33,052 nucleotides of DNA from Gammaproteobacteria bacterium HGW-Gammaproteobacteria-3 (GTDB lineage Bacteria > Pseudomonadota > Gammaproteobacteria > Methylococcales > Methylomonadaceae). Position numbers and translations under genes: made by a program. The stretch spans positions 1 through 33,052 of the forward strand of contig PGZD01000028.1 of the NCBI GenBank assembly GCA_002843155.1, given 5' to 3'. How positions within the stretch are numbered: the first letter of the stretch is position 1; the number at the start of each line of letters is the position of its first letter. The notes under the pieces were generated by a model. That model worked only from the letters and a program-made list of their open reading frames with translations, was not told the DNA's origin and searched no databases. Shown here in pieces: positions 4,922-25,874 of the stretch.

Positions 4922-4984
4922 GTTTATAGTTTAAGTTATATTACTATCGCTGCAAAAACTTGACACCGAAGGATGGAAAACACG

Positions 4985-6559: not shown

Positions 6560-6566
6560 GGAGCAG

Positions 6567-6881: not shown

Positions 6882-6895
6882 AGCTTCAACACTTT

Positions 6896-6965
6896 GCAGA
6901 TCCGCCTCGACACTGATTGAATTTCCCCTTATTCAATAGGCTTGAGTCAACGGATCTGCCTTTTT
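6896..6965 (+). terminator. Long stem-loop with T-run between two cytochrome genes
   Basis: GCAGATCCG (6896-6904) pairs exactly with CGGATCTGC (6951-6959). The interior can extend imperfectly, with TTGAAT against ATTCAA nearer the tip. Five Ts follow (6961-6965), eleven bases before the nirC start. It could end the first cytochrome transcripts and reduce, rather than block, expression of nirC and downstream genes. Confidence 0.55.
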
Positions 6966-6975
6966 ATGGAAAACC

Positions 6976-7281
6976 ATGAAAATCTTCATCCTGTCAGCCA
7001 TGTTGTCCTCTGCCGTTGCCGCACCGCCGCCGGAACCTGCAAGACAACAAGCACTGCGCAACCTGCTCAAACACGATTGCGGTGCCTGTCACGGCCTGAC
7101 CTTGAAAGGCGGACTGGGGCCCGGCCTGCGTCCGGCCGATTTAGCCGATAAATCGAATGAATTTTTGACGGCAACTATTTTAAGGGGCCGCCCCGGTACG
7201 GCCATGCCGCCCTGGAACCGTTTTATCGACAAGAGCGAGGCCGCCTGGCTGGTCGAAATACTCAAAAACCCGCAACCTTGA
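6976..7281 (+). CDS. nirC: NirC-like cytochrome c (haem d1 cluster)
   Basis: This 101-residue periplasmic monohaem cytochrome has a short signal peptide (cleavage near AVAA). The haem site is C35-G-A-C38-H39 and is followed by G-L-T-L-K-G-G-L-G-P-G-L. A later I-L-R-G-R-P-G-T-A-M-P-P-W segment contains the likely ligand Met77. This pattern is characteristic of NirC (cytochrome c55x) in nirS operons, where it can donate electrons to cd1 nitrite reductase or assist d1 maturation. Eleven bases separate it from nirF. A long hairpin with a T-run lies just upstream. Confidence 0.85.
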   Translation: MKIFILSAMLSSAVAAPPPEPARQQALRNLLKHDCGACHGLTLKGGLGPGLRPADLADKSNEFLTATILRGRPGTAMPPWNRFIDKSEAAWLVEILKNPQP

Positions 7282-7291
7282 CGCTTACCAG

Positions 7292-8458
7292 ATGAAATAC
7301 CGATTCCTGATCTTATTGAGCCTGTTTTTTATTGATCCGGTTGCCGCCGATGTGTGCGCTACCGGCGATTTAGGCGTGGTTATCGAGCGCGAACCCGGCA
7401 ATGTGCTGATAATCAATACGACACAACACAAACAGCTCGGCAAAATTGAAAAATTAGGCGATTTATCGCACGCTTCCGTGGTATTTTCCCGCGACCAGCG
7501 CTATGCCTATGTGTTCGGACGGGACGGCGGGCTTACTAAAATCGATTTACTGACCGACAGCGTTGCCAAGCGGATTTTGCAAGCCGGTAATAGTATCGGC
7601 GGCGCCATATCGCAGGACGGTAAACTCATCGCCGTATCCAATTACACGCCCGGCGGCGTTAAAATTTTTTCCGCCGAAAGCCTAGAGCAAATCGCCGATA
7701 TTCCCGCTGTTTATGACGACGGCAAACTGTCCAAAGTCATTGGCCTGGTAGATGCGCCGGGGCAGCGTTTCGTATTCAGCCTGTTCGATGCCGGTGAAAT
7801 CTGGCTGCTGGACATGCGCACACCTGCCGCGCCCGCCCTTCAGAAATTCAAAAACATCGGCAAGCAACCTTATGATGCACTGATAACACCTGACGGACGT
7901 TTCTATATCGCTGGTCTGTTTGGCGAATCGGGCCTTGCCTTGCTGGATTTATGGTCGCCTGAAAGCGGCGTTAAAAAAATATTGCCCGCCTACGGCCAGC
8001 ACGATGAAAAATTGCCGGTTTATAAAATGCCGCATCTGGAAGGCTGGGCCATCGCCGGTGATTACGCTTTTATTCCGGCGGTCGGCCGCCACGAAGTGCT
8101 GGTTATCACTACCGATACCTGGAAGCTGGTCAAAGCCATTCCGGTTGCGGGACAGCCGGTATTCGTAATGGCGCGTCCCGACGGCCGACAAATCTGGGTC
8201 AATTTCGCTTTTCCGGACAATCAGCAGTTACAAATCATCGACGCTAAAGACCTGACCATCGAGAACACCCTCAAACCCGGCAAGGCCGTGCTGCACATGG
8301 AATTTACGCCGCGCGGCGAGGAAGTCTGGGTATCGCTGCGCGACGACAACCAAGTGGTCATCTATGACACCGCAACGCTGGCCGAAGTCAAACGCTTGCC
8401 CGCACAGACACCCAGCGGCATTTTTTTCAGCGCCCGGGCCCATAAAATCGGTTTGTAA
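7292..8458 (+). CDS. nirF: NirF, haem d1 biosynthesis protein
   Basis: This 388-residue protein is a beta-propeller homologous to the d1 domain of NirS but without a haem c site. An N-terminal hydrophobic segment (FLILLSLFFIDPVAA) indicates export. A Cys follows a few residues later, but no clean lipobox is present. Typical NirF stretches are GDLGVVIEREPGNVLIINT, FGRDGGLTKIDLL, LITPDGRFYIAGLFGE and the C-terminal QTPSGIFFSARAHKIGL. NirF acts in a late step of haem d1 synthesis, after siroheme side chains are decarboxylated. It is followed after four bases by nirD, so translation is probably coupled. Confidence 0.92.
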   Translation: MKYRFLILLSLFFIDPVAADVCATGDLGVVIEREPGNVLIINTTQHKQLGKIEKLGDLSHASVVFSRDQRYAYVFGRDGGLTKIDLLTDSVAKRILQAGNSIGGAISQDGKLIAVSNYTPGGVKIFSAESLEQIADIPAVYDDGKLSKVIGLVDAPGQRFVFSLFDAGEIWLLDMRTPAAPALQKFKNIGKQPYDALITPDGRFYIAGLFGESGLALLDLWSPESGVKKILPAYGQHDEKLPVYKMPHLEGWAIAGDYAFIPAVGRHEVLVITTDTWKLVKAIPVAGQPVFVMARPDGRQIWVNFAFPDNQQLQIIDAKDLTIENTLKPGKAVLHMEFTPRGEEVWVSLRDDNQVVIYDTATLAEVKRLPAQTPSGIFFSARAHKIGL

Positions 8459-8462
8459 CGCC

Positions 8463-8921
8463 ATGCTCAGCCCTTTACACAAACATCTGCTCGATGATTA
8501 CCAGCATGACTTTCCGTTGACGCTCAGACCCTATCTGACTATCGCAAAAGCGTTGGGGGTAACGGAAAACGACGTGCTGACAGCCTTCAACAGCTTGATC
8601 GACGATGACTTTATCAGCCGTATCGGCCCCATCATCCCGCCCAATCAACTGGGTAAAAGCACCTTGGTCGCTATGGCGATTCCACCCGGACGTTTAGAGG
8701 GCATTGCCGAAATCATCAGCAGTTTCAGGGAAGTCAACCACAACTATGAACGTGAACACCGCTTCAATCTATGGTTCGTACTAATTGCTTCCAGCAAACA
8801 GCATCTGCAAAACGTCATTCAAAGCATAGAGCGGCGCACCGGTTTTAAAACCCTGCAACTGCCCTTGCTCGATGAGTTTTTTATCGACCTGGGCTTTCCT
8901 TTGAAACTCGACCATGATTGA
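8463..8921 (+). CDS. nirD: NirD-type siroheme decarboxylase subunit
   Basis: The start at ATG 8463, four bases after nirF, gives 152 residues and fits the family better than an upstream in-frame ATG inside nirF. It has the AsnC/Lrp-like fold of NirD/L/G/H proteins: a winged-helix N-terminus (ALGVTENDVLTAFNSLID) and a C-terminal ligand-binding domain with EVNHNYEREHRFNLWFVL. The NirDL and NirGH complexes remove the C12 and C18 acetate carboxyl groups of siroheme in the cytoplasm. The gene overlaps nirL by 8 bp. Confidence 0.9.
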   Translation: MLSPLHKHLLDDYQHDFPLTLRPYLTIAKALGVTENDVLTAFNSLIDDDFISRIGPIIPPNQLGKSTLVAMAIPPGRLEGIAEIISSFREVNHNYEREHRFNLWFVLIASSKQHLQNVIQSIERRTGFKTLQLPLLDEFFIDLGFPLKLDHD

Positions 8922-9417
8922 TGATCGCGACCAAAAATTGCTCGAAGCGGTGCAAAAAGGACTGCCCCTTTGTTCAAGGCCCTATGCGACGCTCGGCCAG
9001 AGCATAGCAATGCCCGAAGCTGAAGTGATCAGTCGGCTGACCCGGCTCAAACAACAGGGCCTGATCAAACGGCTTGGCGTCATCGTCAAACATAAGCGCT
9101 TAGGCTATCGCGCCAACGCCATGGTGGTCTGGAATATTCCCGACACCGACGTTAAAAACCTGGGACAGCAAATCAGCCGGTTTGACTTTGTCACTTTGTG
9201 TTATCAACGCCCCCGCCATTTGCCCGAGTGGCCTTATAACCTGTTTTGCATGATTCACGGCAAAGACCGGAACATTGTTTTGGAGCAATTGAGGTTCATG
9301 ACGGAAACATGCGGGCTGACGCATTACGAGCGTGACATTTTGTTCAGCCGCCGTTGTTTCAAGCAATGCGGCGCCCTTTATAAAACGCCCGCAAGCCAGG
9401 TTTTGGCCTATGGATGA
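8914..9417 (+). CDS. nirL: NirL-type siroheme decarboxylase subunit
   Basis: The protein is 167 residues with the same AsnC/Lrp-like layout. Its winged helix covers about residues 1-55 (LTRLKQQGLIKRLGVIVKHK) and the diagnostic segment LCYQRPRHLPEWPYNLFCMI lies in the second domain. That Arg-Pro-Arg-His element is shared with NirH here but not with the NirD and NirG copies, consistent with paired D/L and G/H subunits. It overlaps nirD by 8 bp and nirG by 8 bp, so the four genes are probably translated as a coupled unit. Confidence 0.9.
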   Translation: MIDDRDQKLLEAVQKGLPLCSRPYATLGQSIAMPEAEVISRLTRLKQQGLIKRLGVIVKHKRLGYRANAMVVWNIPDTDVKNLGQQISRFDFVTLCYQRPRHLPEWPYNLFCMIHGKDRNIVLEQLRFMTETCGLTHYERDILFSRRCFKQCGALYKTPASQVLAYG

Positions 9418-9853
9418 ACTCGACACTAAAATCATCAACACGCTGCAACTCGGCTTTCCGGTTTGCGCCTCGCCTTACCGGCAGGTGGCCGGACAACTCG
9501 GTATAACCGAAGCTAAATTGCTGGCCCGGCTTGAAAACCTGCTCGCTAACGGCACGCTCACCCGCTTCGGCCCGCTATTTCATGCCGAACAAATGGGCGG
9601 CGCATTGACTTTGGCCGCAGTCTCCGTGCCGGTTGCAGAATTTGATAAAATCGCAGGGATCATCAACGCCTTTCCCGAAGTTGCGCATAATTACGCACGC
9701 GAACACACGCTGAACATGTGGTTTGTCATCGCCACCGAAACGCCCCAACAACTGACAGCTACGCTGGCAGCAATTGCCCGGCAAACGGGCCTGACCGTTT
9801 ACAATATGCCCAAAAAACGCGAATACTTCGTCAATCTGAAACTGGAAGCCTGA
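9410..9853 (+). CDS. nirG: NirG-type siroheme decarboxylase subunit
   Basis: The start at ATG 9410, overlapping the end of nirL, gives 147 residues (MDELDTKIINTL). An earlier in-frame ATG lies deep inside nirL. The sequence follows NirD closely in its second half: FPEVAHNYAREHTLNMWFVI is the counterpart of FREVNHNYEREHRFNLWFVL. A short N-terminal wHTH-like domain precedes it. It should pair with the NirH-type protein encoded three bases downstream. The D/G naming follows gene order and the shared HNYxREH motif. Confidence 0.88.
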   Translation: MDELDTKIINTLQLGFPVCASPYRQVAGQLGITEAKLLARLENLLANGTLTRFGPLFHAEQMGGALTLAAVSVPVAEFDKIAGIINAFPEVAHNYAREHTLNMWFVIATETPQQLTATLAAIARQTGLTVYNMPKKREYFVNLKLEA

Positions 9854-9856
9854 TTC

Positions 9857-10333
9857 ATGCTGGATGCCACCGACCGCGCCATCATCGATGCCACCCAAGC
9901 CGGTTTGCCGCTGACGCCCGAACCTTATCAGGCACTGGCCGAGGCGCTGAACTTAAGCGCCGATGAAGTGATGCAAAGAATAAAATCCATGCAGCGGCGC
10001 GGCGTCATACGTCGTATCGCCGCCGTACCCAACCATTACAAACTGGGTTATCGCTATAACGGCATGACGGTCTGGGACGTTCCCGATGAACAAATCGACG
10101 TACTGGGCGCTCGGGTCGGTCAACTGGATTTTGTCAGCCATTGCTACCACAGACCTCGGCATTTGCCGGAGTGGCCGTATAACCTGTTTGCCATGGTGCA
10201 CGGCAAAACCCGTGAGCAAGCCGACCTTCAAATCGAACAGATCGCCCGATTGCTTGGCGATGCCAACCGTGGCCATTGCGTATTGTTCAGCACCCGGATC
10301 CTGAAAAAAACCGGATTCAGGCGTAGCGCTTGA
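9857..10333 (+). CDS. nirH: NirH-type siroheme decarboxylase subunit
   Basis: This is the 158-residue final gene of the haem d1 cluster, three bases after nirG. It repeats the NirL features: RGVIRRIAAVPNHYKLGYRY after the winged helix and HCYHRPRHLPEWPYNLFAMV in the second domain. No nirJ (radical SAM) or nirE (uroporphyrinogen methyltransferase) follows. The next 690 bases are non-coding. Precursor siroheme must come from elsewhere, and the final propionate chemistry done by NirJ needs a gene outside this window. Confidence 0.9.
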   Translation: MLDATDRAIIDATQAGLPLTPEPYQALAEALNLSADEVMQRIKSMQRRGVIRRIAAVPNHYKLGYRYNGMTVWDVPDEQIDVLGARVGQLDFVSHCYHRPRHLPEWPYNLFAMVHGKTREQADLQIEQIARLLGDANRGHCVLFSTRILKKTGFRRSA

Positions 10334-10440
10334 TTTTTGTCTTGCGGCTTGTTTTCTTACAAAAAACCGCCGGATTTAAAACCTCATAGAAAACTTCAAC
10401 GCCGGTCATCCCATCGCTACAATACAAACCACGAAAGCAT

Positions 10441-10462
10441 AATTAATCTATGTTATTTAACA
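10441..10462. promoter_or_regulatory. AT-rich shared motif A (copy 1)
   Basis: The core CTATGTTATTTAACA matches 14315-14336 over 22 bases with a single difference. The second copy contains a perfect palindrome of TATGTTAT and ATAACATA. Conservation of length and flanks suggests an operator or activator site shared by the genes at 11023 and 14661. Confidence 0.55.
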
Positions 10463-10534
10463 AATATCAGCCAGTCATATGCTCTATTATCGTACGAATT
10501 TCTTTCATGCCTTGATTATCGGACGCTGATTTTA

Positions 10535-10557
10535 ATTAAACTATGCTATATGACTAT
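10535..10557. promoter_or_regulatory. AT-rich shared motif B (copy 1)
   Basis: ATTAAACTATGCTATATGAC (10535-10554) differs by one base from 14213-14232 upstream of the gene at 14661. Like motif A, it contains a TATGNTATATRAC core, so A and B are probably two versions of one binding site. Confidence 0.55.
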
Positions 10558-11022
10558 CTGTGCCATTGCCTCATAGCTTCATGCTTTTTTTATTGCAATG
10601 GCCTGAAAGTACCGAAATATTTTTATCCGTTACATATCATATACTTATATAATCACTCCATCGAGCAGCAGGTTGCCCCGAATACATCCGAATAACCGTC
10701 GGTATCAATAGACAGGCAGGGGGGCGACACTGAAACCGGCTGGTTTTGCTCCTGCTGCACCAAAAATGAAAACTTCTTCTGAAATAAAACAAGCCCATAC
10801 CGGCCTTTTCAAAGTTTGCCAAAGACTTTAATAATTAATAAATCCAATAAGTTAAATATTAATCAAGGATGCAGTAAAGCGATGACAAGATTTTTTACAA
10901 AGAAGAAACCACAGTGCAATTAATATTGCGGTATGAATTTTGCTTTTATATTCTGCGTTATGCGAGTAATCCGCAAAACGCATCTTTAATTCAGACTCTG
11001 AACTTGCCTGGAGGCTTTCAAA

Positions 11023-11829
11023 ATGAAAATAACAAATACTCTGTCACTAGCTGCATACAGCGGCATCGCTCTCGGTCTGCTTGCCGTCAACCCGCAAGCG
11101 GCGGCGCATACCCGACTGGAACATCCGGTCGTTAAAGAAGGCGTCAGAACCGATACTAACGTTGTCATTCCGCACGGCTGCGACGGCCAACCCGTCATCG
11201 GCAATGTTTTCTTTTTCCCCAATCAAACCGATTCCCGCGTCCAGACTTCAACGGACAGTTTCGCAACCTTTACTGATTCGCCCTTGACGGCGCTTGACTT
11301 TCTTCAGTCGCGCGTATTGATAACGCCGATCAAAAGCCGGGAGGTTTTTGATTTGGAAGAAAGGATTGCTGACACAGAGGGCAACGGCCTGGGGTTTTGG
11401 GCGGCCATCGGCGAAATCCCGGCATCGGGCTGGGTGGGCAAGCTCCCGGTGCGGATAGGCGCGGCCAACATTGCAACAGATTCGTGTGCAAAAAGCGTGA
11501 CGATAGTTCCGGCCATTGCCAATGTTTGCGCACTTTCCAAAGCTTCCGCGCCAAATTTCAATGCTGAAAACAGCGGTGGTCTGGTTGATTTATGGACTGC
11601 GCCTGACAATGGCACCCCGTTTGACGCCCCGGCCTGGAATTTTCCTGCCAGCTATAAAATCGAACGCGACCTGGAAAACAATCCATTCCCGGCAAGCTGT
11701 GATCTCGATGGCGACGGCATCGACGCAGGAGAGACGTTTGATGTGCGTATTTTCCCTTCGGCGGCGCAGACGCTTAAAGACATGCCGGTCTTCTTTGACG
11801 GCGTACAAGTTTGGCCTACACCGGAGTAA
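11023..11829 (+). CDS. YcnI/DUF1775-like secreted protein, putative copper binding
   Basis: This 268-residue protein follows a good RBS (CTGGAGG). The signal peptide (residues 1-28) ends PQAAA, so the mature chain is predicted to begin with His29. The next part contains NVVIPHGCDGQPV, like the PHGCDG signature of YcnI/DUF1775 proteins. In that family the N-terminal His helps bind Cu(II) in a mono-histidine brace. The rest is longer and more divergent, with four Cys including the PHGCDG one. Near the C-terminus is D-L-D-G-D-G-I-D-A-G-E, an EF-hand/dockerin-like calcium loop. It stands alone after an AT-rich control region shared with the operon at 14661. Copper binding is inferred. Confidence 0.7.
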   Translation: MKITNTLSLAAYSGIALGLLAVNPQAAAHTRLEHPVVKEGVRTDTNVVIPHGCDGQPVIGNVFFFPNQTDSRVQTSTDSFATFTDSPLTALDFLQSRVLITPIKSREVFDLEERIADTEGNGLGFWAAIGEIPASGWVGKLPVRIGAANIATDSCAKSVTIVPAIANVCALSKASAPNFNAENSGGLVDLWTAPDNGTPFDAPAWNFPASYKIERDLENNPFPASCDLDGDGIDAGETFDVRIFPSAAQTLKDMPVFFDGVQVWPTPE

Positions 11830-14021: not shown

Positions 14022-14212
14022 AATTTTACGACCGCCGACAAAGCATCAGACACATAAAGTCCTACGCGCCGTCACAAGCAGACCGTAATGAATATCTATC
14101 GGCAATGGGAGAAAATTCCATAACCACGTTAAAGCTTATAAAAAACTCAGTATAGCTTAATTTAAAATAATCGACGCCTCCCGGTTGGCGCAGATTCGCA
14201 AAACAAAATTTT

Positions 14213-14254
14213 ATTAAACTATGTTATATGACATATTTTTTATGTCATATGACC
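14213..14254. promoter_or_regulatory. AT-rich shared motif B (copy 2) with a neighbouring half-match
   Basis: ATTAAACTATGTTATATGAC (14213-14232) matches 10535-10554 with one difference. Five bases after the core ends, TATGTCATATGACC (14241-14254) gives a second, partly palindromic version of the same site. Confidence 0.55.
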
Positions 14255-14314
14255 TTTTTTTTGAGTTTTTTCAATGATGGCTTTGCAGGTCAGTGATATA
14301 GCGTCTCTTATATT

Positions 14315-14338
14315 AATTAATCTATGTTATATAACATA
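14315..14338. promoter_or_regulatory. AT-rich shared motif A (copy 2), perfect palindrome
   Basis: TATGTTAT-ATAACATA (14323-14338) is a perfect 16-bp palindrome. Together with its left flank it matches 10441-10462 at 21 of 22 positions. Spacing and half-sites differ from Fnr, Crp and canonical Zur boxes, so I assign no regulator. Confidence 0.6.
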
Positions 14339-14660
14339 TTTGGCGCTTTAACGTTCTTGTCCTTACTGCGTATTTAATGTCCGACAGGCACAAAAGCCGT
14401 GATTCTTTGAATGATTTCTTCAATTGACTTGCAAATTGTAATCTCTTGCCTTCAAGTCAGTCGCTGAATTAAAAATAGATATAGCTGTCATATCAATAGC
14501 CTGAAATTTCTTTTTGCACATTTAAAAACTGCCCGGCGCAGAGCCGCAGAAAACAAAATGCTTCACAAAATATGGCATAAATACTGTATTACTTTTAAAT
14601 TGGATAACAAAAAAATCACAGGGATGCGATAACAGTTGACTACACAGGAGAAAACCTATC

Positions 14661-15140
14661 ATGAAACCGACATTTTTAAGCAAAACCCTTCTCTTGACCG
14701 GCCTCATCGCGCTGGCTCTGGCCGGTACAGCGCATGCCCACACCGCCATCGCACCGCTTGGCGACATTGACGATCAGGGCAGTAATACGGCGGTAGCGGA
14801 TATCACCTGCTTCAACGATGGCAATGGGGAGCCCGATCACCTGCTGGCGAGCATCAAGGATCTCTCCCCACCGGTTCCAGGCTTATTGATCAATCTGCAA
14901 ATGCTCAAAGGCAAAACCTTTGCGCCCGGACAGCCTATCATCGCCACCAGCACGACCGACCCTGTTTCCGGCGATACCGAGGCCAGCGATTACATTCTGC
15001 TGCATAGAGGCGGCGGCGTTTACACCATCATGCTCAATAAAACCGGTCCCGGCACCCGCGAATTTGAACTGGTATGGCACTGCAATGCGGCCGACGGCAC
15101 CCATACCGGCACCGATATTGTTGTGACCCAATATCAATAA
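14661..15140 (+). CDS. Secreted protein with predicted N-terminal histidine, unknown family
   Basis: The protein is 159 residues with an AGGAG site upstream. The signal peptide ends ALAGTAHA (26), leaving mature His27-Thr as the first residues. This is the arrangement needed for histidine-brace copper sites, though signal peptidase could also cut elsewhere. The mature part is acidic and beta-rich with two Cys (ADITCF and VWHCNA), probably a disulfide. I do not recognise the family. It is the first gene of a probable six-gene operon (TlpA-like, DUF4266, DUF3570, ApbE, SpeE-like). Its control region shares two motifs with the YcnI-like gene at 11023, so a shared metal-related role is plausible. 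Confidence 0.7.
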   Translation: MKPTFLSKTLLLTGLIALALAGTAHAHTAIAPLGDIDDQGSNTAVADITCFNDGNGEPDHLLASIKDLSPPVPGLLINLQMLKGKTFAPGQPIIATSTTDPVSGDTEASDYILLHRGGGVYTIMLNKTGPGTREFELVWHCNAADGTHTGTDIVVTQYQ

Positions 15141-15154
15141 CCGTGCTTATCGTA

Positions 15155-15691
15155 ATGCCTCTCACCTGCATCGGCACAATAAAAAACTCAGCCCGGACCG
15201 CTGTTCTAGCTTATGCGTTAGCTACCGTTGCCACGGCCCATGCCGCTACAGTCGGCGAGCCGATGCCCCACTGCGAATTGGCGCCGATAGACGCCGCAGC
15301 GGTTTCCGGCCTGGAAAATTTCCGGGGCAAAGTGCTGTATGTCGATTTTTGGGCGTCCTGGTGCCCGCCCTGTGTCAAATCGTTTCCGTTCATGAACCAA
15401 TTGGTGCGCGATTACAAGGCGCAGGGCCTTGAAGTGATCGGCATTAATCTGGATGAAATAAACACCGATGCCGCGCAATTTCTCGACCGGCACCCGACGC
15501 AATTCACCGTGCTGGCCGATTTGGCCAAAACCTGCGCGCGGGACTTTGAAGTCAAAGCCATGCCGTCCACCTATCTCGTCGACCGCAACGGCATCATACG
15601 CCATATTCATTTAGGTTTTCGCAGTGGCGCCGAAGCGGAATTAAAAGAAAATATCGAGCGCTTGCTGGCCGATAACGCGAACGCCGAATAA
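15155..15691 (+). CDS. TlpA-like periplasmic thioredoxin
   Basis: I start this protein at ATG 15155 (178 residues), 14 bases after the previous stop. Longer in-frame starts inside the previous gene would spoil the signal peptide. The signal peptide ends ATAHA (30). The redox centre is W-C70-P-P-C73 within FWASWCPPCVKSFPFM, and a cis-Pro motif (AMPSTYLVD) follows. The fold is AhpC/TSA-TlpA, so the protein probably reduces disulfides or keeps Cys or metal sites reduced in the periplasm. In this operon the likely clients are the Cys-containing DUF4266 lipoprotein and the DUF3570 barrel. Confidence 0.9.
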   Translation: MPLTCIGTIKNSARTAVLAYALATVATAHAATVGEPMPHCELAPIDAAAVSGLENFRGKVLYVDFWASWCPPCVKSFPFMNQLVRDYKAQGLEVIGINLDEINTDAAQFLDRHPTQFTVLADLAKTCARDFEVKAMPSTYLVDRNGIIRHIHLGFRSGAEAELKENIERLLADNANAE

Positions 15692-15703
15692 CAGGAGTTA
15701 ATT

Positions 15704-15931
15704 ATGTCGCTGACCTCCCGCAAAGCAAAATTAGCCTCTCTGATGCTGCTGGCCAATCTCGGCGGTTGTGCCGAAGTCGCCCCCTGGGAGCGCGGATTTC
15801 TCGCCAAGCCGCAAATGGCTCTGCAATCCACATCCATGCAAAGCGCAATCAGGGCGCATACGTTCAGCAGCCGCGAAGCTGCGGCCAACAGCGGCTCCGC
15901 TGGCGGCGGCGGGGGCTGTGGATGTTATTGA
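15704..15931 (+). CDS. DUF4266 small lipoprotein
   Basis: This 75-residue protein starts at ATG 15704 behind CAGGAG. It has a lipobox (LANLGG-C22), so the mature lipoprotein has only about 54 residues. The family signature APWERGFLAKPQMAL follows, then S-R-E-A-A and a Gly-rich tail ending G-G-G-G-G-C72-G-C74-Y. The invariant-looking C-terminal CGC could bind a metal ion, be modified, or exchange disulfides with the adjacent thioredoxin. DUF4266 genes commonly accompany DUF3570 genes, as here. No biochemical role is known to me. Confidence 0.88.
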   Translation: MSLTSRKAKLASLMLLANLGGCAEVAPWERGFLAKPQMALQSTSMQSAIRAHTFSSREAAANSGSAGGGGGCGCY

Positions 15932-16035
15932 AGCGGGCATCCGGCATAATCCAGGCGCTTGAACCGGATTGCCGGACAGCCGAACAAATCAAATCGCCCC
16001 CTGTCTGTCCCAACTGACTTTTACAATTTCAATAC

Positions 16036-18690
16036 ATGCCCGCATCAACAAAACCCTCGCAAACAGCGTCTTTCAATGGCGCTTTACAGGCTTTGACTTC
16101 CGCCGCGCTGATCCTGCCCGGACTGATGTCACAAGTCGCCGAAGCGGCCTCGGAAAATGTCGCGGAATTTGGCTACAGCCATTATCAGGAAGGCAAGCGC
16201 GACCTGTTCAACGTCCGCAACAGCATGAATCCTATCGAAGTCGATAGCGTTCACGGCAATACCTCGCTCTCCCTGACCGACCGGATCAAATTTGGCTTCA
16301 ACTTTACCCAGGATACCTGGTCCGGCGCAACGCCCGTGGCGACGGGACTTTTGGCCACGCAACTGACCAACCGGCCGATCAAGGTGCCCTCTGAAAATGG
16401 TCTGGTCACCGTCGGCGCCTCGCCATTCATCAATTCCAATGTGGCATTGGACAGGAACCTGAATCCGATACAACAAACCGAATCGAAATTCGTCCATATC
16501 ATGGCCGAGGCTTCGCCGGAAACACGCCAGCAAGGCGATTTCAAGCTAAGTTATGAATGGGACAATGCCGCGCTTGACGTCGGCGGCGGTCTTTCCATTG
16601 AAAACGATTACGAATCCAGTTACGGCAGCGTGGGCGGCCGTTTCGATTTCAATCAGAAACTGACCACGGTCAAATGGAGCACAAGCTTCACCGACAGCGA
16701 TATTTCGGCCATCCTCGATCATGATATTTTGCCGTATTTGACGCGGACGGCTTTTGCCGACCAGATAGAATTTCGTGGCGGCTCGGAAATTCTGCACGGC
16801 AACAAGCAGGACTGGGCCGGGCAATTCGGCATCAGTCAGGTGCTCAACAAAACCGCCGTTCTTGACGCCAATATAAGCTATACCCATAGCAGCGGTTTTC
16901 TGGAAAATCCATATAAAGCGGTCACGGTGATTTTTGTCGATCCGGACCAATTGGCCAACCCTGGCAATCAGGTCATTAACGGCGATGTCCGCGCCTTGCT
17001 GGAGCAACGTCCCGGCACCCGTAATCAATGGAATTTCAGCACTAAATATGTGCAATACATCGAGCCTTTCGATGCCGCGCTGCACTTTAACTATCAGTTT
17101 TCGCACGATGACTGGGGTATCAACGCCCATGTTTTCGATGCTGACTGGGCGCAGCCTTTAGGCCATGGCTGGACGGTGACGCCCCGAATCCGCTATTATT
17201 CGCAGAGCGCCGCCAATTTTTACCGGCCCGTTGTCACGACCTTGCAAACCTTCAACAGCAATGCGACCGATGAGCAGGGGCGAACCATCCTGGTGGATGC
17301 CGATAACCCTACCAACGGCGTCGAGTTTTTCCGCGATCAAAATGATAATGTTTTCGATGCCGCCGGTAATATCGTCGATGAAAGGGATCTGAACCTGCAA
17401 AACAAGCGGGTGCCTTTCGACCCTGAAAAACTTCCGAACAATTTCTCCAGTGATACGCGGCTCTCGGGTTTCGGCACTTTGAGCGGCGGTATTACGGTAG
17501 CCAAGCAATTCGCCAAAGGCGTGAGCCTGGAAGCGGGGTTTGAATACTATACCCATCAAGGCTCGCTGAAGCTGGGCGGCGGCGGTGAAAATGATTTTGC
17601 CGATTTTGATTCTTTTGTCGCCAATGCCGCGCTCAAAGTCGATTTGTCCGCCGTGAACTTTCAAGGCGGCGGGAGCGGTACGCATGAACACGCTCATGTG
17701 CACGGCGGACATAGTGAGCCGGCTGGCGTAATCGCCGGCCACATGCTCAAACAGGCGGGTGAATTCATGGTCGGTTACCGTTTCATGTACAATCGCCAGG
17801 ATGGCGATATTTTGCACGGCACGCAAGCTGTCAGCGATCAGGCCATTGTCGATAACGGTTGCAGCGATACTCTTCCATGCCGCTTTACGCCGACTTATAT
17901 GAACATGAAGATGCACATGCTGAATATCATGTACGCCCCGGCCGACTGGCTAAACCTGATGCTGATGCCGACTTTCATGGATATGGAAATGAATATCCGC
18001 GAACTCGCGGGCCGCCCTCCCGCGCAACCCGGTGTTCATGAACACAGCGGCATCCAGGGCCATACTACCGGCGGCGTCGGCGACACCAAGCTATCGGCGC
18101 TGGTAGCCTTGCTCGACACGCCGGTACATCATGTCCATATGGGGCTGGGTTTAAGCGCCCCAACCGGCAATGTCGATCTCAAATTCCGGCGGACTTTTCA
18201 AATCGATGGCGGCCTGGTGCATTTTGGTATGCAATTGGGCAGCGGCACCTGGGATTTTCTGCCCAGCCTCACCTATACCGGCAATTTGGCTGACTGGTTC
18301 TGGGGCGGGCAAGTGAGCGGCATTACCCGTCTGGAAGACCGCAACGAATCCGGCTACCGGCTGGGCGATCAGGTGCAGGCGACAAGTTGGGGCGGTTATC
18401 AACTGACGCACTGGTTATCGGCGACCGTACGCGGCATCTATACCGTGCAAGGCGCCATAAAAGGGGATTTCAACAGTTTCAATGCCCGTTCCGGGCCGAT
18501 GGATTTTCCCGCCAACCACGGCGGCCGTTTCTGGGATGTCGGCTTCGGTCTCAGCGCCTCGGTGCCGGGCGGCGACCTGGCGGGCAATAGCTTTAGTTTC
18601 GAGTGGCGGCAGCCGGTCAGTGATGATGTCAATGGCTTTCAGCTCGAACGCGAAGGCGCGTTGACCGCATCCTGGCACTATGCTTTTTAA
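16036..18690 (+). CDS. DUF3570 protein fused to a second outer-membrane beta-barrel-like domain
   Basis: This is an 884-residue exported protein. The signal peptide ends near SQVAEA (37). Residues from about 40 to 545 match the DUF3570 type, with tyrosine- and aspartate-rich beta strands (YSHYQEGKRDLFNVRNSMNP, then many FGFNF/YSQSA-like strands). After a His-rich linker (THEHAHVHGGHSEPAG, about 548-563) comes a second barrel-like region resembling outer-membrane transporter or phenol-degradation MetA-type proteins. It contains a Met-rich run (YMNMKMHMLNIMY, then MLMPTFMDMEMN, about 621-653) and ends in Phe (SWHYAF), as outer-membrane barrels do. The His/Met clusters suggest copper or similar metal contact. 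DUF3570 proteins are normally near 400-500 residues, so this looks like a fusion. The start at ATG 16036 has a weak RBS. Confidence 0.8.
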   Translation: MPASTKPSQTASFNGALQALTSAALILPGLMSQVAEAASENVAEFGYSHYQEGKRDLFNVRNSMNPIEVDSVHGNTSLSLTDRIKFGFNFTQDTWSGATPVATGLLATQLTNRPIKVPSENGLVTVGASPFINSNVALDRNLNPIQQTESKFVHIMAEASPETRQQGDFKLSYEWDNAALDVGGGLSIENDYESSYGSVGGRFDFNQKLTTVKWSTSFTDSDISAILDHDILPYLTRTAFADQIEFRGGSEILHGNKQDWAGQFGISQVLNKTAVLDANISYTHSSGFLENPYKAVTVIFVDPDQLANPGNQVINGDVRALLEQRPGTRNQWNFSTKYVQYIEPFDAALHFNYQFSHDDWGINAHVFDADWAQPLGHGWTVTPRIRYYSQSAANFYRPVVTTLQTFNSNATDEQGRTILVDADNPTNGVEFFRDQNDNVFDAAGNIVDERDLNLQNKRVPFDPEKLPNNFSSDTRLSGFGTLSGGITVAKQFAKGVSLEAGFEYYTHQGSLKLGGGGENDFADFDSFVANAALKVDLSAVNFQGGGSGTHEHAHVHGGHSEPAGVIAGHMLKQAGEFMVGYRFMYNRQDGDILHGTQAVSDQAIVDNGCSDTLPCRFTPTYMNMKMHMLNIMYAPADWLNLMLMPTFMDMEMNIRELAGRPPAQPGVHEHSGIQGHTTGGVGDTKLSALVALLDTPVHHVHMGLGLSAPTGNVDLKFRRTFQIDGGLVHFGMQLGSGTWDFLPSLTYTGNLADWFWGGQVSGITRLEDRNESGYRLGDQVQATSWGGYQLTHWLSATVRGIYTVQGAIKGDFNSFNARSGPMDFPANHGGRFWDVGFGLSASVPGGDLAGNSFSFEWRQPVSDDVNGFQLEREGALTASWHYAF

Positions 18691-18723
18691 TGCAACTCAG
18701 CCTATTGGCTTTGCTGTTTGGAT

Positions 18724-19632
18724 ATGAAGCTTTACCAGTATCCGTTTAACGCCATGGGTACGCCCTGTGATTTGCAACTGTACGCCCGCTCAAAGGCGCA
18801 AGGACTGTGCGCGGCAAAGCGCGTAAAAGGCGACGTGCAGCGTCTGGAAGCGCGCTATTCGCGTTATCGTGAAGACAGTTTTTTAAGCGCCATGAACCGG
18901 GCTGCGCAAACCGGCGGCGCTATCACTGTCGATGAAGAAACCGCCAGCCTGCTCGATTATGCCGTCACTTGTTACCAGCAAAGCGGCGGCCTGTTCGATA
19001 TTACTTCGGGCCTTTTGCGCAAAGTCTGGCGACGTGATTTAAGCCGACTGCCGGATAATAGCGAAATTGAGCCGCTGCTCGCCAGAATCGGTTGGCATCG
19101 TGTCCATTGGCAGCCGCCCGTGCTTGAGTTTACTGTTCCGGGCATGGAAATTGATTTTGGCGGCATTGTAAAAGAATACGCCGTTGATCGGGCGGCGGTA
19201 TTATGCCGGGAGCAAGGCATCGAGCACGGTTTCGTCAATTTAGGCGGCGATATTAAAATCATCGGCCCTCGCGCCGACGGCAGCCCCTGGCGTATCGGCA
19301 TCCGCCACCCGCGTGCAGCCCGTGTCATTCGGACTTTGTCATTGACGCAAGGCGCCCTGGCCAGTAGCGGTGATTATGAACGCTGTTTTATGATCGATGG
19401 CAACCGTTACGGCCATGTGTTGAATCCCAAAACCGGCTGGCCGGTGCGTTATCTGGCGGCGGTCAGCGTGATCAGCGATTTTTGTGTCGTTGCAGGGAGC
19501 GCCTCGACCATTGCCATGCTCAAGGAACAAGACGGCCCGGCCTGGCTGGACGACTTAGGCTTGCCTTATTTTTGGGTGGATGTAGAGGGAAATACCGGAC
19601 ACAAACTTGACCATAGCGACGGCGTCCCATGA
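18724..19632 (+). CDS. ApbE-type FAD:protein FMN transferase (no signal peptide)
   Basis: ATG 18724 gives 302 residues. A TTG six bases earlier is possible. ApbE motifs are clear: NAMGTPCDL, LEARYSRYREDS, FDITSGLLRK, DFGGIVKEYAVDRAA, VNLGGDIKIIG, ASSGDYERCF, and GHVLNPKTGWPVR. The usual C-terminal D-A-x-A-T segment is altered here (VVAGSASTIAMLKEQ), which may affect Mg/FAD handling. Most ApbE proteins are exported or lipid-anchored. This one lacks a signal peptide, which suggests cytoplasmic flavinylation. The enzyme attaches FMN through phosphate to Ser/Thr of partner proteins. No standard FMN-binding domain is encoded nearby, so its target is unknown. Confidence 0.85.
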   Translation: MKLYQYPFNAMGTPCDLQLYARSKAQGLCAAKRVKGDVQRLEARYSRYREDSFLSAMNRAAQTGGAITVDEETASLLDYAVTCYQQSGGLFDITSGLLRKVWRRDLSRLPDNSEIEPLLARIGWHRVHWQPPVLEFTVPGMEIDFGGIVKEYAVDRAAVLCREQGIEHGFVNLGGDIKIIGPRADGSPWRIGIRHPRAARVIRTLSLTQGALASSGDYERCFMIDGNRYGHVLNPKTGWPVRYLAAVSVISDFCVVAGSASTIAMLKEQDGPAWLDDLGLPYFWVDVEGNTGHKLDHSDGVP

Positions 19633-19696
19633 ATTGACGCTTCACGCCGCCTGCCTTTTCCCGTTTTTTATTCTGTAACCACGCACTCAAATATTT

Positions 19697-21247
19697 ATGA
19701 ATAATCCATTGAACAAACTGGGCCGTATCGGCCTTTACTTGACGGTATTTATGACCGGCGCGTCGGTCATGGTCATCGAGCTTTTGGGTACGCGCCTGAT
19801 TGCCCCGTTTTACGGCGCCAGTTTATATGTCTGGTGCTCGCTTATTTCAGTGACCATGATAGCGTTGGCCCTGGGCTATTTCATCGGCGGGCGCTGGGCG
19901 GATTATCGTGACGGTAAAGGTTTTTCGCTCATTCTGGCGCTGGCTGCGGTGTTGACGCTGCTGATTCCCTGGATGACACGTTCGGTGTTACTGGCGACCG
20001 ACCCGCTCGGACTGCGCACGGGCGCTTTTATCAGCGCGTTGGTGTTGTTTACACCGAGCCTGACCCTGCTCGGCATGGTAAGCCCTGTGGCCATTAAACT
20101 GGCGACGCGACAGTTGCAAGGCGTCGGCGCCAGTTCCGGCTCCCTTTATGCCGTCAGCACGCTGGGCAGCGTGGTCGGCACTTTATTGCTGGGGTTTTTT
20201 TTGTTCCCCGAGTTCGGTTCGCGCGAAATTCTCGCCGGACTGGGCATAGGGCTTCTGATCCTGGCATTGTTGGTCGCGCTTTATGAACAGCAACAGTTGG
20301 CTGTCGTCAAAGCGACAGGGCCGGTACTGCTGTTGATCATCGTCGGCTTCAGCCTGATTCCGCAAATCGTCGGTGCGGGCCGCGCCTTACCCGCGCAACA
20401 GCAACTTATCATCCGCTCGGAACAGGAAAGTCTCTACGGCTGGGTGCGCGTCATCGACAAACCCAAAGCCAAGCTGCGGTTTCTGACATCCGACGCCTCG
20501 GTCATCGGTGCGGCCAGCCTGATCGATGGCAGCAATCTTCTCGTTTACCAGGATATCGTCAATTTGCTGCCTGCTTTGGCGCCGGGCATGAAACGCGCCT
20601 TGATTGTCGGACAGGGCGCCGGGCACATGGCCACAGCCCTGCATGAGCGTTACGGCATTAAAGTCGATACACTGGAAATTGATCCTGCCGTGGCCCAAGC
20701 TGCCGTTGATTATTTTGGGTTTAAACCTTCCGGCCAGGCACGAGTCGGTGATGGCCGCTATGAAATCAGAAAATTGACCGGGCCTTACGATTTAATCATC
20801 CACGACTGTTTTACCGGTGGCAGCGAACCGGCGCATTTGCTGACGGTGGAAACGTTACGCCAACTGCGCGGCTTGTTATCGGAGAAGGGGCTGCTGGCTT
20901 TAAATTTTGTCGGTTTTCTGGAAAACGGGCAGAATCCGGCATTGGCTTCGGTAGCAAAAACCCTGGACGAGGTTTTTCCCCGGCGACAAGTTTTTATTTC
21001 CGAACCGGGCGATGACTTTAACGACTTTATTTTTCTGACCGGCAACGCGCCGGTTGATCTTGAAGCCCCATCGCTCAGCCTTGGGCAACAAGACTGGTTA
21101 AAGCAGCGGCAAGTGTCGGTCAATAGTGAAAAAGGCCGGATTTTGACCGATAATCTCAATGCTCTGGAGCATCTGCAACTGCGCAAAGCCGAGCATTACC
21201 GGCAGGTCCTGGTCGAATGGTTCGGCACCGAATGGTTATTGCGCTAA
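19697..21247 (+). CDS. Membrane-anchored spermidine-synthase-like protein (fused MFS/SpeE type)
   Basis: This 516-residue protein starts at ATG 19697. Residues 1-235 form about seven transmembrane helices (first helix includes FMTGASVMVIELLGTRLIAP). Residues 240-516 form a SAM-dependent methyltransferase-like spermidine synthase fold: LIVGQGAGHMATAL is the nucleotide loop, LEIDPAVAQAA the acidic strand end and ARVGDGRYEIRKL the catalytic-region strand. DLIIHDCFTGGSEPAHLLTV follows. These fused proteins are common but their substrate is mostly unproven. It lies 64 bases after ApbE and probably ends the operon started at 14661. Confidence 0.87.
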   Translation: MNNPLNKLGRIGLYLTVFMTGASVMVIELLGTRLIAPFYGASLYVWCSLISVTMIALALGYFIGGRWADYRDGKGFSLILALAAVLTLLIPWMTRSVLLATDPLGLRTGAFISALVLFTPSLTLLGMVSPVAIKLATRQLQGVGASSGSLYAVSTLGSVVGTLLLGFFLFPEFGSREILAGLGIGLLILALLVALYEQQQLAVVKATGPVLLLIIVGFSLIPQIVGAGRALPAQQQLIIRSEQESLYGWVRVIDKPKAKLRFLTSDASVIGAASLIDGSNLLVYQDIVNLLPALAPGMKRALIVGQGAGHMATALHERYGIKVDTLEIDPAVAQAAVDYFGFKPSGQARVGDGRYEIRKLTGPYDLIIHDCFTGGSEPAHLLTVETLRQLRGLLSEKGLLALNFVGFLENGQNPALASVAKTLDEVFPRRQVFISEPGDDFNDFIFLTGNAPVDLEAPSLSLGQQDWLKQRQVSVNSEKGRILTDNLNALEHLQLRKAEHYRQVLVEWFGTEWLLR

Positions 21248-23718: not shown

Positions 23719-23926
23719 TAAAAAGGATATTTAGGAAGAATATAACGCAACTTTTAGCTGTAGAAAAGTTAGGTTAATAATAGCAACAGATACTGCAAAT
23801 AAAAATGTGACATATTGTCGCAGTTGAATTACGCGTCCAAATCGGCTATTAATCTTCTGCTGCGCGCGTATTCCTTTTCGGGCAGCGCCCCACCTTTTCC
23901 TATTGATAGCGGGACTGTTCAGCCTT

Positions 23927-25345
23927 ATGTTCTCAAATGTTTTACCCAAAACCGAAATATCCTCCCGGCAAAATCTCAAATGGCTGTTCATACTCAGGAA
24001 TCTGATGCTTGCCAGCGAAGCCATACTGATCATTATTTCCACTCACGGCCTCAGTATCCGCCTGCCCCAGGAACAACTGTGGCTGGTTGTGCTGTCGATC
24101 GGCTCGGTCAATCTGTATACCTGGATGCGCTTGCAAACCGAAGATCCGGTCAGCGAACTGGAAATTTTTTCACAACTGGTTATCGATGTATTGGGTATCA
24201 CCGCTTTATTGTACCTGACCGGCGGCGCCTCCAATCCCATCATTTGGGTGTTTTTGTTGCCGTTGATTATAACCGCCATTATGTTGCCGCACGCATATGC
24301 CTGGTATATGGTTATTTTGACCACTTCCATGTATACGATACTGATCGGCTATAACCTGCCTCTACCTTCTATAGAACCGCATATGCCGATGATGGCGCCC
24401 GACATCGATCTTTCGGCATTGCCGGTAGCGGGCATGAGCCGTTCCAGCCTGGCTCATTACCAGATGTTGATCAAAGCCCATGAACTGGAAGACCAGCATT
24501 ATTTCAACCTGCATCTTTTCGGCATGTGGTTCGGTTTTGTCTTCAGTGCCGGTCTCGTGGCTTTTTTCGTCATCGAACTGGCCAAGGTGCTCAGGGATCA
24601 GGAACGTTATCTGGCTGAAGCGCGCGAGAACGCATTGCGCGACGAACGCGTGGTGGCGTTGGGCACATTGGCCGCGAGCGCCGCGCACGACATCAGCACG
24701 CCCTTGGGCACCATTGCCATTGTCGCTCATGAACTGGAAAATGAGTACCCGATTCATCGTTTCCCGGATTTGCATGAAAAAACCTTGATCATGCAGCAGC
24801 AGATTAACCGCTGCAAGGAAACCTTGTCGGTGATGTCGGCCAGCGCCGGTGAAATGCGCGCGGAATCGGGCAAGATCATGTCAATGCTCGAATATCTCGA
24901 CGAAGTCATCAGTCAGTGGCGCACCCATAAACCCGAAACCAAACTCAGTTTGTCCATTACCCCCGGCCTGCCCGAACAAGGTAAAATAATCGCCGAGCGG
25001 ACCTTGACCCACGCCTTGATCAACATTCTCAATAACGCCGCCGAAGCCACCCCCGCAGAAAAGGGGCTGGAATTTCACGCTAGCTGGGATTTGACGCAAG
25101 CCACCCTGAAAATCCGCGATTTCGGCGAGGGAATGCCATCGGAAATTCTGGAGCTGGCCGGCAGCCATCCGGTTATCAGTAACAAGCTGGGACTGGGTGT
25201 CGGATTGTTTTTAACATGCAGCACTATCCGGCGCATGGGCGGCACCATAGACTTTTTTAATCTGGAATCCGGCGGCGCTTGCGTAGAAATAAAATTACCG
25301 CTACTAACTTTAAAGGAGACGCAAACGCATGAACCAGTCTATTGA
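23927..25345 (+). CDS. regB: RegB/PrrB-family redox sensor histidine kinase
   Basis: The protein is 472 residues from ATG 23927 (a TTG at 23903 is possible). Six predicted helices fill residues 15-220, and the quinone-sensing motif GGASNPIIW (99-107) corresponds to the GGxxNPF box of RegB. The kinase H-box AAHDISTPLGT has His254. Cys296 (INRCKETL) aligns with the redox-active cysteine of RegB. N-, G1- and G2-type ATP motifs follow (LINILNNAAEA, DFGEGM, GLGVGLFL). It phosphorylates RegA in response to quinone or redox state. The reading frame overlaps the regA gene by 17 bases. RegB/RegA systems often control respiration and denitrification genes, which makes the haem d1 cluster a candidate target. 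Confidence 0.93.
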   Translation: MFSNVLPKTEISSRQNLKWLFILRNLMLASEAILIIISTHGLSIRLPQEQLWLVVLSIGSVNLYTWMRLQTEDPVSELEIFSQLVIDVLGITALLYLTGGASNPIIWVFLLPLIITAIMLPHAYAWYMVILTTSMYTILIGYNLPLPSIEPHMPMMAPDIDLSALPVAGMSRSSLAHYQMLIKAHELEDQHYFNLHLFGMWFGFVFSAGLVAFFVIELAKVLRDQERYLAEARENALRDERVVALGTLAASAAHDISTPLGTIAIVAHELENEYPIHRFPDLHEKTLIMQQQINRCKETLSVMSASAGEMRAESGKIMSMLEYLDEVISQWRTHKPETKLSLSITPGLPEQGKIIAERTLTHALINILNNAAEATPAEKGLEFHASWDLTQATLKIRDFGEGMPSEILELAGSHPVISNKLGLGVGLFLTCSTIRRMGGTIDFFNLESGGACVEIKLPLLTLKETQTHEPVY

Positions 25346-25874
25346 TAAACCCCGATTATTGCTGGTTGATGATGATGAGACTTTCTGCAAGGTATTGAAA
25401 AGCGCGCTGGAAAAGCGCGATTATGAAGTCATCGTCGCTAACGCGGTGGAAACCGGCATTGAACTGGCCGAGCAAATGGAGCCGGAATACGCCATTATCG
25501 ATTTACGCATCGGTTATCAGTCCGGATTGGAGCTGGTCAAAAAACTCATTTCTCTGGACGGTAACACACAAATCGTCATGCTGACCGGTTTCGCCAGCAT
25601 CGCGACGGCGGTAGAGGCCATCAAACTGGGCGCTATCCATTATCTCACCAAACCGGCCAATGCCGATGAAATAGTCAGCGCCCTGCACAAAAACGAAGGC
25701 GACCCGTCTATCGCCATCAGCGAAAATCCATTATCCATCAAACGCCTGGAGTGGGAGCATTTGCAGAAAGTGCTGATGCAGCACGACGGCAATATTTCCG
25801 CCGCCGCGCGGGCGCTGAATATGCACCGCCGCACCTTACAAAGAAAACTCGACAAACGGCCGGTGAGAGAATAA
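25329..25874 (+). CDS. regA: RegA/PrrA-family response regulator
   Basis: The protein is 181 residues. The receiver domain has the acidic pair DDD near residues 14-16, phosphorylation site Asp58 (AIIDLRIG), conserved Thr (MLTGFASI) and Lys (YLTKPAN). A short linker leads to a Fis-type HTH that is almost the family consensus: GNISAAARALNMHRRTLQRK. Start ATG 25329 overlaps the end of regB by 17 bases, so the pair is co-translated. It binds DNA directly without sigma54 (no AAA domain). Confidence 0.95.
   Translation: MNQSIDKPRLLLVDDDETFCKVLKSALEKRDYEVIVANAVETGIELAEQMEPEYAIIDLRIGYQSGLELVKKLISLDGNTQIVMLTGFASIATAVEAIKLGAIHYLTKPANADEIVSALHKNEGDPSIAISENPLSIKRLEWEHLQKVLMQHDGNISAAARALNMHRRTLQRKLDKRPVRE

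Follow-up and report, generated by a model that had tools for sequence, protein, structure and literature searches.

The question raised by the locus analysed here is which function is served by a run of six genes (14661-21247) that encode, one after the other, a secreted protein with an N-terminal histidine (N-His), a TlpA-type thioredoxin, a DUF4266 lipoprotein, a DUF3570 fusion, an ApbE flavin transferase and a SpeE-like enzyme. The run lies on contig PGZD01000028.1 of assembly GCA_002843155.1 (Gammaproteobacteria bacterium HGW-Gammaproteobacteria-3), of which a stretch of 33,052 nucleotides (nt), here called the window, was analysed. The host genome of 3.1 Mb is that of a methanotroph and encodes a pmoA-type PF02461 gene (E 3.9e-132). 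The initial annotation had claimed six co-directional genes that form a candidate undescribed envelope module, with copper handling, redox chemistry or a modified peptide as possible roles. All six genes were found on the plus strand at the places claimed, with intergenic gaps of, in order, 14, 12, 104, 27 and 64 bases. The module is an extension of a known flavinylation system and is real, conserved and associated with the guilds of methane and ammonia oxidizers. Most likely it serves to handle a metal by redox chemistry at the outer membrane, copper being ranked before iron. The features of the run are as follows:

14661-15140, plus strand: N-His secreted beta-sandwich protein, mature N-terminus His27
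15155-15691, plus strand: TlpA-type periplasmic thioredoxin with WCPPC; probable start the ATG at 15155, the longest open reading frame (ORF) reaching upstream to 15074
15704-15931, plus strand: DUF4266 small lipoprotein with C-terminal CGCY (PF14086, 6e-19; lipobox recognised by eye)
16036-18690, plus strand: DUF3570 - COG4313-like double-barrel outer-membrane protein of 884 amino acids (aa) (PF12094 over aa 18-525, 1.3e-112)
16330-16422, plus strand: predicted flavin acceptors T99 in SGAT (16330-16332) and S129 in VGAS (16420-16422), motif according to the available text of PMC8238504
17656-17763, plus strand: His-rich linker of the fusion, aa 541-576, 17% His
17764-18687, plus strand: second barrel of the fusion, aa 577-884, with a methionine (Met) ladder M622-M652 at 17899-17991
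18718-19632, plus strand: ApbE flavin transferase without a visible signal peptide (PF02424, 5e-76)
19697-21247, plus strand: membrane SpeE-like enzyme (NF037959 fused MFS/spermidine synthase, 194 bits against a curated cut-off of 40)

Relation to the DUF3570 flavinylation system

Clusters of DUF3570, thioredoxin-like, DUF4266 and ApbE genes, with or without DsbD, were described in 2021 (Meheust et al., PMC8238504; all statements on this paper refer to the available part of its text), and in Chlorobium luteolum the DUF3570 protein is flavinylated at two [S/T]GA[S/T] motifs with its cognate ApbE. The claim of the initial annotation that no characterised pathway corresponds to the module is therefore wrong for the TlpA/DUF4266/DUF3570/ApbE core. 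The same four genes cluster in the window, and the likeness to the published system covers the four core proteins, their clustering, the CXC tail and the GA-type flavin sites. An adjacent DsbD gene is lacking in the window as in 316 published clusters, and DsbD-type proteins are encoded at two places elsewhere in the window genome. Unlike the published system, the DUF3570 protein of the window is fused to a second barrel and is accompanied by N-His, YcnI-like and SpeE-like partners; literature searches revealed no paper on the full gene set in methanotrophs or Nitrosomonas among the matches listed, and among the papers searched only PMC8238504 names DUF3570 or DUF4266. For the poorly understood DUF3570 flavoproteins, the module adds partner genes, an architecture of two barrels and a flavinylation site that can be tested.

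Both predicted flavin acceptors, T99 and S/T129, are present in 52 of 52 aligned fusions. In the first motif (SGAT, aa 96-99 in the window) GAT is kept in all 52, and the leading residue is S in 46, G in 5 and A in 1. The second motif (VGAS, aa 126-129) reads GA[S/T] in 52/52, with a leading V that departs from [S/T]GA[S/T]; V is found at this position in 23 fusions, T in 12, S in 8, A in 8 and G in 1. The fusion is presumably flavinylated in the window organism as well.

The 'CGC tail' which had been singled out in the lipoprotein is present as CGCY and is the known CXC motif of DUF4266 (46 of 46 aligned sequences). The proposal of a modified peptide was not supported. The CXC tail of the DUF4266 lipoprotein is of redox type, and no maturase was recognised by eye among the recurrent neighbours of 80 loci (defined below), so that a ribosomally synthesized and post-translationally modified peptide is not favoured.

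The stop of the fusion and the start of ApbE are separated by nine codons in the same frame. In the window ApbE the first conserved motif, AMGT, occupies residues 12-15. Of 62 relatives, 50 have it among their first 20 residues, and 12 have longer called starts or no motif match. Four out of five ApbE proteins encoded near non-fused DUF3570 genes carry the motif within the first 15 or so residues, while in the fifth, which is more distant, it lies near residue 25 with no obvious leader. A leaderless ApbE, judged by eye and without a signal-peptide program, is thus common to the window and most non-fused DUF3570 clusters looked at (L158, L159, L162, L165). The second ApbE of the window genome starts, again by eye, with a lipoprotein-type signal. 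Since the DUF3570-linked ApbE branch shows no signal peptide, its sequences suggest that flavinylation likely takes place before export. The available parts of PMC8238504, PMC11334425 and PMC12052999 contain no statement on flavinylation before export.

Conservation, gene order and hosts

When the genome collection was searched with the second barrel, 277 relatives were found. Counts on 80 loci refer to the best 80 of these 277, many of which are situated on short contigs and cut by contig ends. One gene outside the six-gene run belongs to the set that was compared:

11023-11829, plus strand: 'YcnI-like' secreted protein with an N-terminal His; two genes lie between it and the main run

The gene order of the module, which the initial annotation had expected to be conserved, was looked at in relatives and is present. 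At the 80 loci, tblastn detected DUF3570 in 79, DUF4266 in 78, TlpA in 75, N-His in 69, ApbE in 64, the YcnI-like gene in 47 and the SpeE-like gene in 37. The strict same-strand order TlpA-DUF4266-DUF3570-barrel was found in 71/80 loci, with N-His directly in front in 63/80, and with ApbE behind as well in 51/80. A closer tblastn comparison covered 20 stretches of 19 relatives, two of the stretches coming from a single genome; 18 relatives share the family of the window genome and one belongs to its order. It gave the fusion in 20, TlpA and DUF4266 in 19 each, N-His in 18, ApbE in 16, the SpeE-like gene in 10 and the YcnI-like gene in 9. One stretch (L037) carries the fusion without the other module genes; a few others have ApbE or the SpeE-like gene at another place or in the opposite orientation.

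The YcnI-like gene adjoins the N-His gene in many Nitrosomonas loci. Methanotrophs have the SpeE-like gene downstream, and many Nitrosomonas loci have it upstream in the opposite orientation; because its position differs between the guilds, its link with the fusion is not just inherited order. Its presence tracks the fusion: in a sample of 61 relatives it was found at E < 1e-70 in 20 of 28 fusion genomes versus 3 of 33 others (Fisher 6e-7, uncorrected for kinship; the cut-off was chosen after the list had been seen, and at 1e-40 the fusion-free count is 5/33). All three fusion-free genomes with a SpeE-like gene carry a non-fused DUF3570.

By name, the best 80 loci comprise 32 of Nitrosomonas, 43 of methanotrophs (Methylobacter, Methylovulum, Methyloglobulus, Methylomonas, Crenothrix and others), four of 'Proteobacteria bacterium SZAS' and one of Gammaproteobacteria MGR_bin175. 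The SZAS rows fall inside Nitrosomonas in the tree described below, and MGR_bin175 shares sequence with a contig of another genome (G233) that carries PF02461. All 80 therefore belong to methane- or ammonia-oxidizer lineages, MGR_bin175 by PF02461 only.

The association was also seen in genome samples. Among 369 genomes drawn evenly from the class, PF02461 was found in 4/4 genomes with the full fusion versus 7/365 others (Fisher 4e-7, uncorrected for kinship, the four carriers representing three families only). Among 398 phylum genomes (E limit 1e-25), the fusion was detected only in the window genome and in G381, both with PF02461. Of 100 genomes from the family of G381, those of genus g281 match both halves of the fusion in 53 out of 60, a count that includes one stop-interrupted match and a few cut by contig ends. 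PF02461 is missed in drafts: it was found in 37/60 genomes of g281, but in 12/12 of those with at most 4 contigs. In the genomes sampled, only lineages of methane or ammonia oxidizers carry the fused form of this conserved envelope module, which comprises about seven genes and provides specific genes and proteins to test. As a side observation, one fusion gene of g281, a genus with ammonia monooxygenase (G436:C1:341366-344007), is broken by three in-frame stops.

A tree of 81 fusion rows was constructed by a quick IQ-TREE run with Shimodaira-Hasegawa-like approximate likelihood ratio test (SH-aLRT) supports only and a midpoint root; the Nitrosomonas loci L069, L085 and L110 (3/32), having no fusion ORF of 850 aa, were left out. 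The window fusion grouped in a set of 38 rows (support 100) together with four Methyloprofundus-type or related methanotroph rows and all rows of Nitrosomonas and SZAS, while the other 43 rows are methanotrophs and MGR_bin175. The simplest reading of this topology would be transfer between methanotrophs and ammonia oxidizers, in either direction. Many fusion paralogues, several of them in tandem, were seen in a Methyloglobulus-type genome, G017 (L039, L134).

The double barrel and its probable metal

The outer-membrane barrel fusion proposed in the initial annotation could be recognised as DUF3570 joined to a second barrel in one 884-aa frame, with no Pfam name beyond PF12094 (aa 18-525). Its predicted model, with a mean predicted local distance difference test score (pLDDT) of 79 and a predicted template modelling score (pTM) of 0.72, contains two barrels, the first at aa 42-536 with 16 main strands (own count from the listed strands) and the second at aa 577-883 with 12 strands. 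GfcD, a protein of polysaccharide export (PMC11494523), is said to hold probably two barrels in one outer-membrane protein as well, going by a term in an abstract. The first barrel matched generic outer-membrane barrels (BamA, PelBC, CymA, OmpG; Z 17-21). For aa 564-884 the COG4313 channel 4RL8 ranked first (Z 21.8, root-mean-square deviation 2.9, 252 aligned), with FapF (5O65) tied at Z 21.6. The second barrel shares its 12-strand fold with both the COG4313 channel (PDB 4RL8, PMC4493636) and FapF, and differs from them in being fused to another barrel and in its His-rich linker and Met ladder. A PDB profile search with the second barrel gave FapF as the best match (E 0.04, not significant), and PF13557 (Phenol_MetA_deg) does not match the window fusion, while it does match the relative L053. 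The signal-peptide region of the fusion (aa 16-29, 16081-16122) shows unusual conservation: L20, A24, L27, P28 and G29 are the same in 52/52 fusions, and 'ALALPG' recurs in this region of many non-fused DUF3570 proteins.

According to the available part of PMC4493636, COG4313 members are implicated in the uptake of hydrophobic molecules. Together with the fold match to this channel (Z 21.8), this would suit a module in which the COG4313-like barrel takes up hydrophobic or small organic substrates and flavin redox chemistry is secondary. Such a role is very improbable in our estimation, as it leaves the Met/His pattern and the N-His partners unexplained and no catabolic pathway was recognised by eye among the recurrent neighbours of the 80 loci.

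Provided that the short turns in the model face the periplasm, T99 would lie on the outer half of strand 3, and S129 on the long outer loop that comes next. This outward flavin position can be put only conditionally, since the loop with S129 is of low model confidence (aa 126-129 below 50). With both acceptors towards the outer side, the double barrel could be a heme-free conduit for flavin-based extracellular electron transfer to outside oxidants and take up no metal. The Foldseek matches include a chain of the Mtr complex (with a low TM-score, 0.23), and a redox-type regulatory pair is encoded nearby; both are in line with such a conduit. We nevertheless regard it as improbable: Mtr is one of hundreds of barrel matches, no cytochrome was recognised in the unit, and the N-His proteins and the Met ladder are left unexplained. 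The regulatory pair is located as follows:

23903-25874, plus strand: RegB/RegA-type redox two-component pair (best NCBIfam matches, below curated cut-offs)

By tblastn, the stand-alone Met-ladder barrel has a kinase/regulator pair of similar sequence beside it in 7 of 15 loci (L143, L144, L145, L148, L149, L150 and L152). The neighbour pairs that were sampled also matched RegB/RegA-type families best, below curated cut-offs, and a further stand-alone barrel copy (L175) is divergent to a kinase of RegB-like look. It is possible that the window pair regulates the module. In L152 a CusB-like gene lies about 4 kb from the stand-alone barrel. Two candidates were dropped. An 808-residue frame in G206, taken for a further fusion, proved to be a stand-alone barrel, its reading frame continuing across a kinase gene of divergent orientation, and a small gene in L146 and L147, taken for DUF2946, had no Pfam match.

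The Met ladder of the second barrel is near-invariant. M624, M626, M628, M632, M642, M644 and M652 are the same in 52/52 fusions and M622 in 51, and H569, C609 and C615 are invariant in 52/52. Among 16 relatives that are stand-alone barrels or are fused in another way, 15 have Met at M622, M624, M626, M628, M632, M644 and M652, the one without the ladder being a Methylocystis 'alpha-amylase' (L055). M642 is Met in 13/16, and M648 and M650 are not conserved. Other Methylocystis matches were left out of the ladder alignment, and two of the 15 stand-alone loci (L140, L145), which gave no blastp match, were left out of the ladder table. In terms of chemistry, a ladder of Met that hardly varies is a better fit to Cu(I) than to Fe(II).

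On a Methylosinus C49 plasmid (L054:6780-8996) a Met-ladder barrel is independently fused to an OmpA-like barrel via a His-rich linker; the plasmid search with the DUF3570 half gave no match. FeoB follows this barrel directly and a PepSY gene precedes it; beyond, the other strand carries genes for FecR, a sigma factor and a TonB receptor. VIT1 iron transporters occur in 25 published DUF3570 clusters (PMC8238504). The same flavin-redox architecture could accordingly serve iron, with Fe(III) being reduced at the surface or in the periplasm to supply the uptake of ferrous iron. We consider iron rather unlikely, given the preference of the almost invariant ladder for Cu(I) noted above; moreover, no Feo gene was recognised among the recurrent neighbours of the 80 loci, which were inspected by eye and not searched.

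The secreted N-His proteins bear on copper as well. Cleavage of the N-His protein was placed by eye between AHA and HT. Among 41 aligned sequences, including that of the window, the mature N-terminal residue is His in 38 and Asp in 3, and C50, H140, C141 and H148 are invariant. H27 (38/41) could, with H140 or H148 (both 41/41), supply the residues of a histidine brace, in which an N-terminal and a second His form one Cu site. The model is a mostly confident beta-sandwich (pLDDT 86), with Thermococcus protease domains (Z 10.5, 102 aligned), YPM and collagen-binding domains as fold matches, all of a common sandwich arrangement.

In the YcnI-like protein, for which signal cleavage was also placed by eye, H29, H51, C53, W126, C169 and W191 are invariant in 25/25 members. 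The name given to it by the initial annotation was not borne out: 0/25 members match the DUF1775 hidden Markov model (HMM; E up to 10, HMMER filters on) and no PDB profile matched, so that membership in DUF1775 was rejected. In the available text of PMC8424229, YcnI binds Cu(II) via His27 and Glu50 with Trp137 nearby, and the proteins with an N-terminal His described there and in the available part of PMC12537917 bind Cu(II) or Ni(II). The window protein has in common with YcnI/DUF1775 copper proteins the N-terminal His after signal cleavage and an invariant Trp, and differs in having extra conserved His and Cys. H29 and H51 are 22 residues apart, against 23 for His27 and Glu50 of YcnI, a likeness of spacing only, and a lead.

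Two further secreted proteins were noted near these genes. A third His-start type (AHE/AHG; L119:3781-4563, L050:2309-3139) lies near the module in 9/80 loci, one such protein having a weak PEP-CTERM match. An apparently secreted HEAT-repeat protein (e.g. L034:4935-5897) is encoded near the N-His gene in 33/80 loci and 13/20 relatives; it was not seen before the N-His gene of the window.

On this evidence we tentatively favour, at somewhat less than an even chance, a flavin-dependent metal-redox module of the cell envelope, the metal of which is most likely copper. A DsbD-type membrane protein encoded elsewhere would supply electrons to TlpA, which would hand them to the CXC lipoprotein DUF4266, and from there they would go to two flavin mononucleotide (FMN) groups attached by ApbE to the DUF3570 barrel. 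At these groups a metal ion would be reduced, Cu(II) to Cu(I) being the most likely case, and the reduced metal would be handled by the Met ladder and the His-rich linker of the second barrel. The secreted N-His proteins would capture or hand over Cu(II), and the SpeE-like enzyme would be a conserved accessory. Electron route, metal identity and direction of transport are what we infer. The metal and redox direction of the initial annotation is supported; its copper idea is plausible because the host guild, the Met ladder and the N-terminal His proteins point there, but no result shows copper.

In an extended form, which we think unlikely, a heme-free, flavin-based metal reductase and a channel of the outer membrane would be united in one chain, shared by exchange between the guilds and flavinylated in the cytoplasm before export, given an ApbE without signal peptide: FMN held towards the surface by the first barrel would reduce Cu(II), and Cu(I) would enter along the ladder of the second. 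If true, this would be a dedicated copper-acquisition route of methane and ammonia oxidizers. To our knowledge, how copper enters for the monooxygenases of gammaproteobacterial methanotrophs and ammonia oxidizers without methanobactin is an open question.

Several points weigh against copper as the metal of a module tied to these oxidizers. The comparison proteins were found by similarity to the window barrel, and conservation of the ladder is therefore favoured. No known copper-protein fold for N-His was among the 50 matches listed by either fold search, which excludes nothing, and no copper transporter, chaperone or regulator was recognised, by eye and without a family search, in neighbour families of at least 5 of the 80 loci. 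FeoB beside the Methylosinus barrel and the published VIT1 link favour iron, and the COG4313 channels are linked to hydrophobic molecules, as described above. In genus g309, also of the G381 family, PF02461 was found in 16/23 genomes and the fusion in 0/23; ammonia monooxygenase thus occurs without the fusion, which is therefore not required for these monooxygenases. PF02461 is present in 53 of 61 order-level relatives, including 27 of 28 fusion carriers, a sample in which the association can show little contrast. Lastly, many genomes with no PF02461 match contain non-fused DUF3570 or a second barrel by itself.

Upstream motif and neighbouring genes

The remaining features lie upstream of the two N-His-type genes:

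10439-10467 and 10532-10560, no strand: two weaker palindromic motif copies, 460-580 bases upstream of the YcnI-like gene
14220-14235 and 14323-14338, no strand: two strong copies of the motif TATGTNATATNACATA, within 14210-14341, 320-450 bases upstream of N-His
14241, no strand: third, weaker match to TATGTNATATNACATA in the region before the N-His gene
ending at 14021: divergent cyclic nucleotide (cNMP)/rhodanese gene, on the opposite side of the region before the N-His gene

A 29-nt motif is present in four copies, two in each intergenic region before the two N-His-type genes. With up to 2 mismatches, its 16-base core TATGTNATATNACATA has 4 matches in the window versus 0.03 expected, one in the first intergenic region and three in the second. 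Since the second region also faces the divergent gene, the motif could serve that gene. In relatives, the core (at most 2 mismatches, within 400 bases upstream) was found before 14/74 YcnI-like genes versus 4/370 shuffled controls, in which two-base blocks and not strict dinucleotides were shuffled. All 14 are methanotroph loci. Upstream of the other module genes of relatives it was found before 0/84 N-His, 0/75 TlpA, 0/79 fusion and 1/62 ApbE genes. The co-regulation with the YcnI-like gene suggested by the initial annotation thus agrees with the motif before both genes in the window. From these sites, a shared regulator for YcnI-like genes in methanotroph loci appears plausible.

The palindrome did not fit known Zur or Fur boxes and was rejected as such. 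Promoter and terminator scans of the window gave sites no more numerous than in shuffles. Further upstream, the genes at 4973-10333, named by eye from their ORFs without a family search, resemble those of cytochrome cd1 nitrite reductase and heme d1 assembly.

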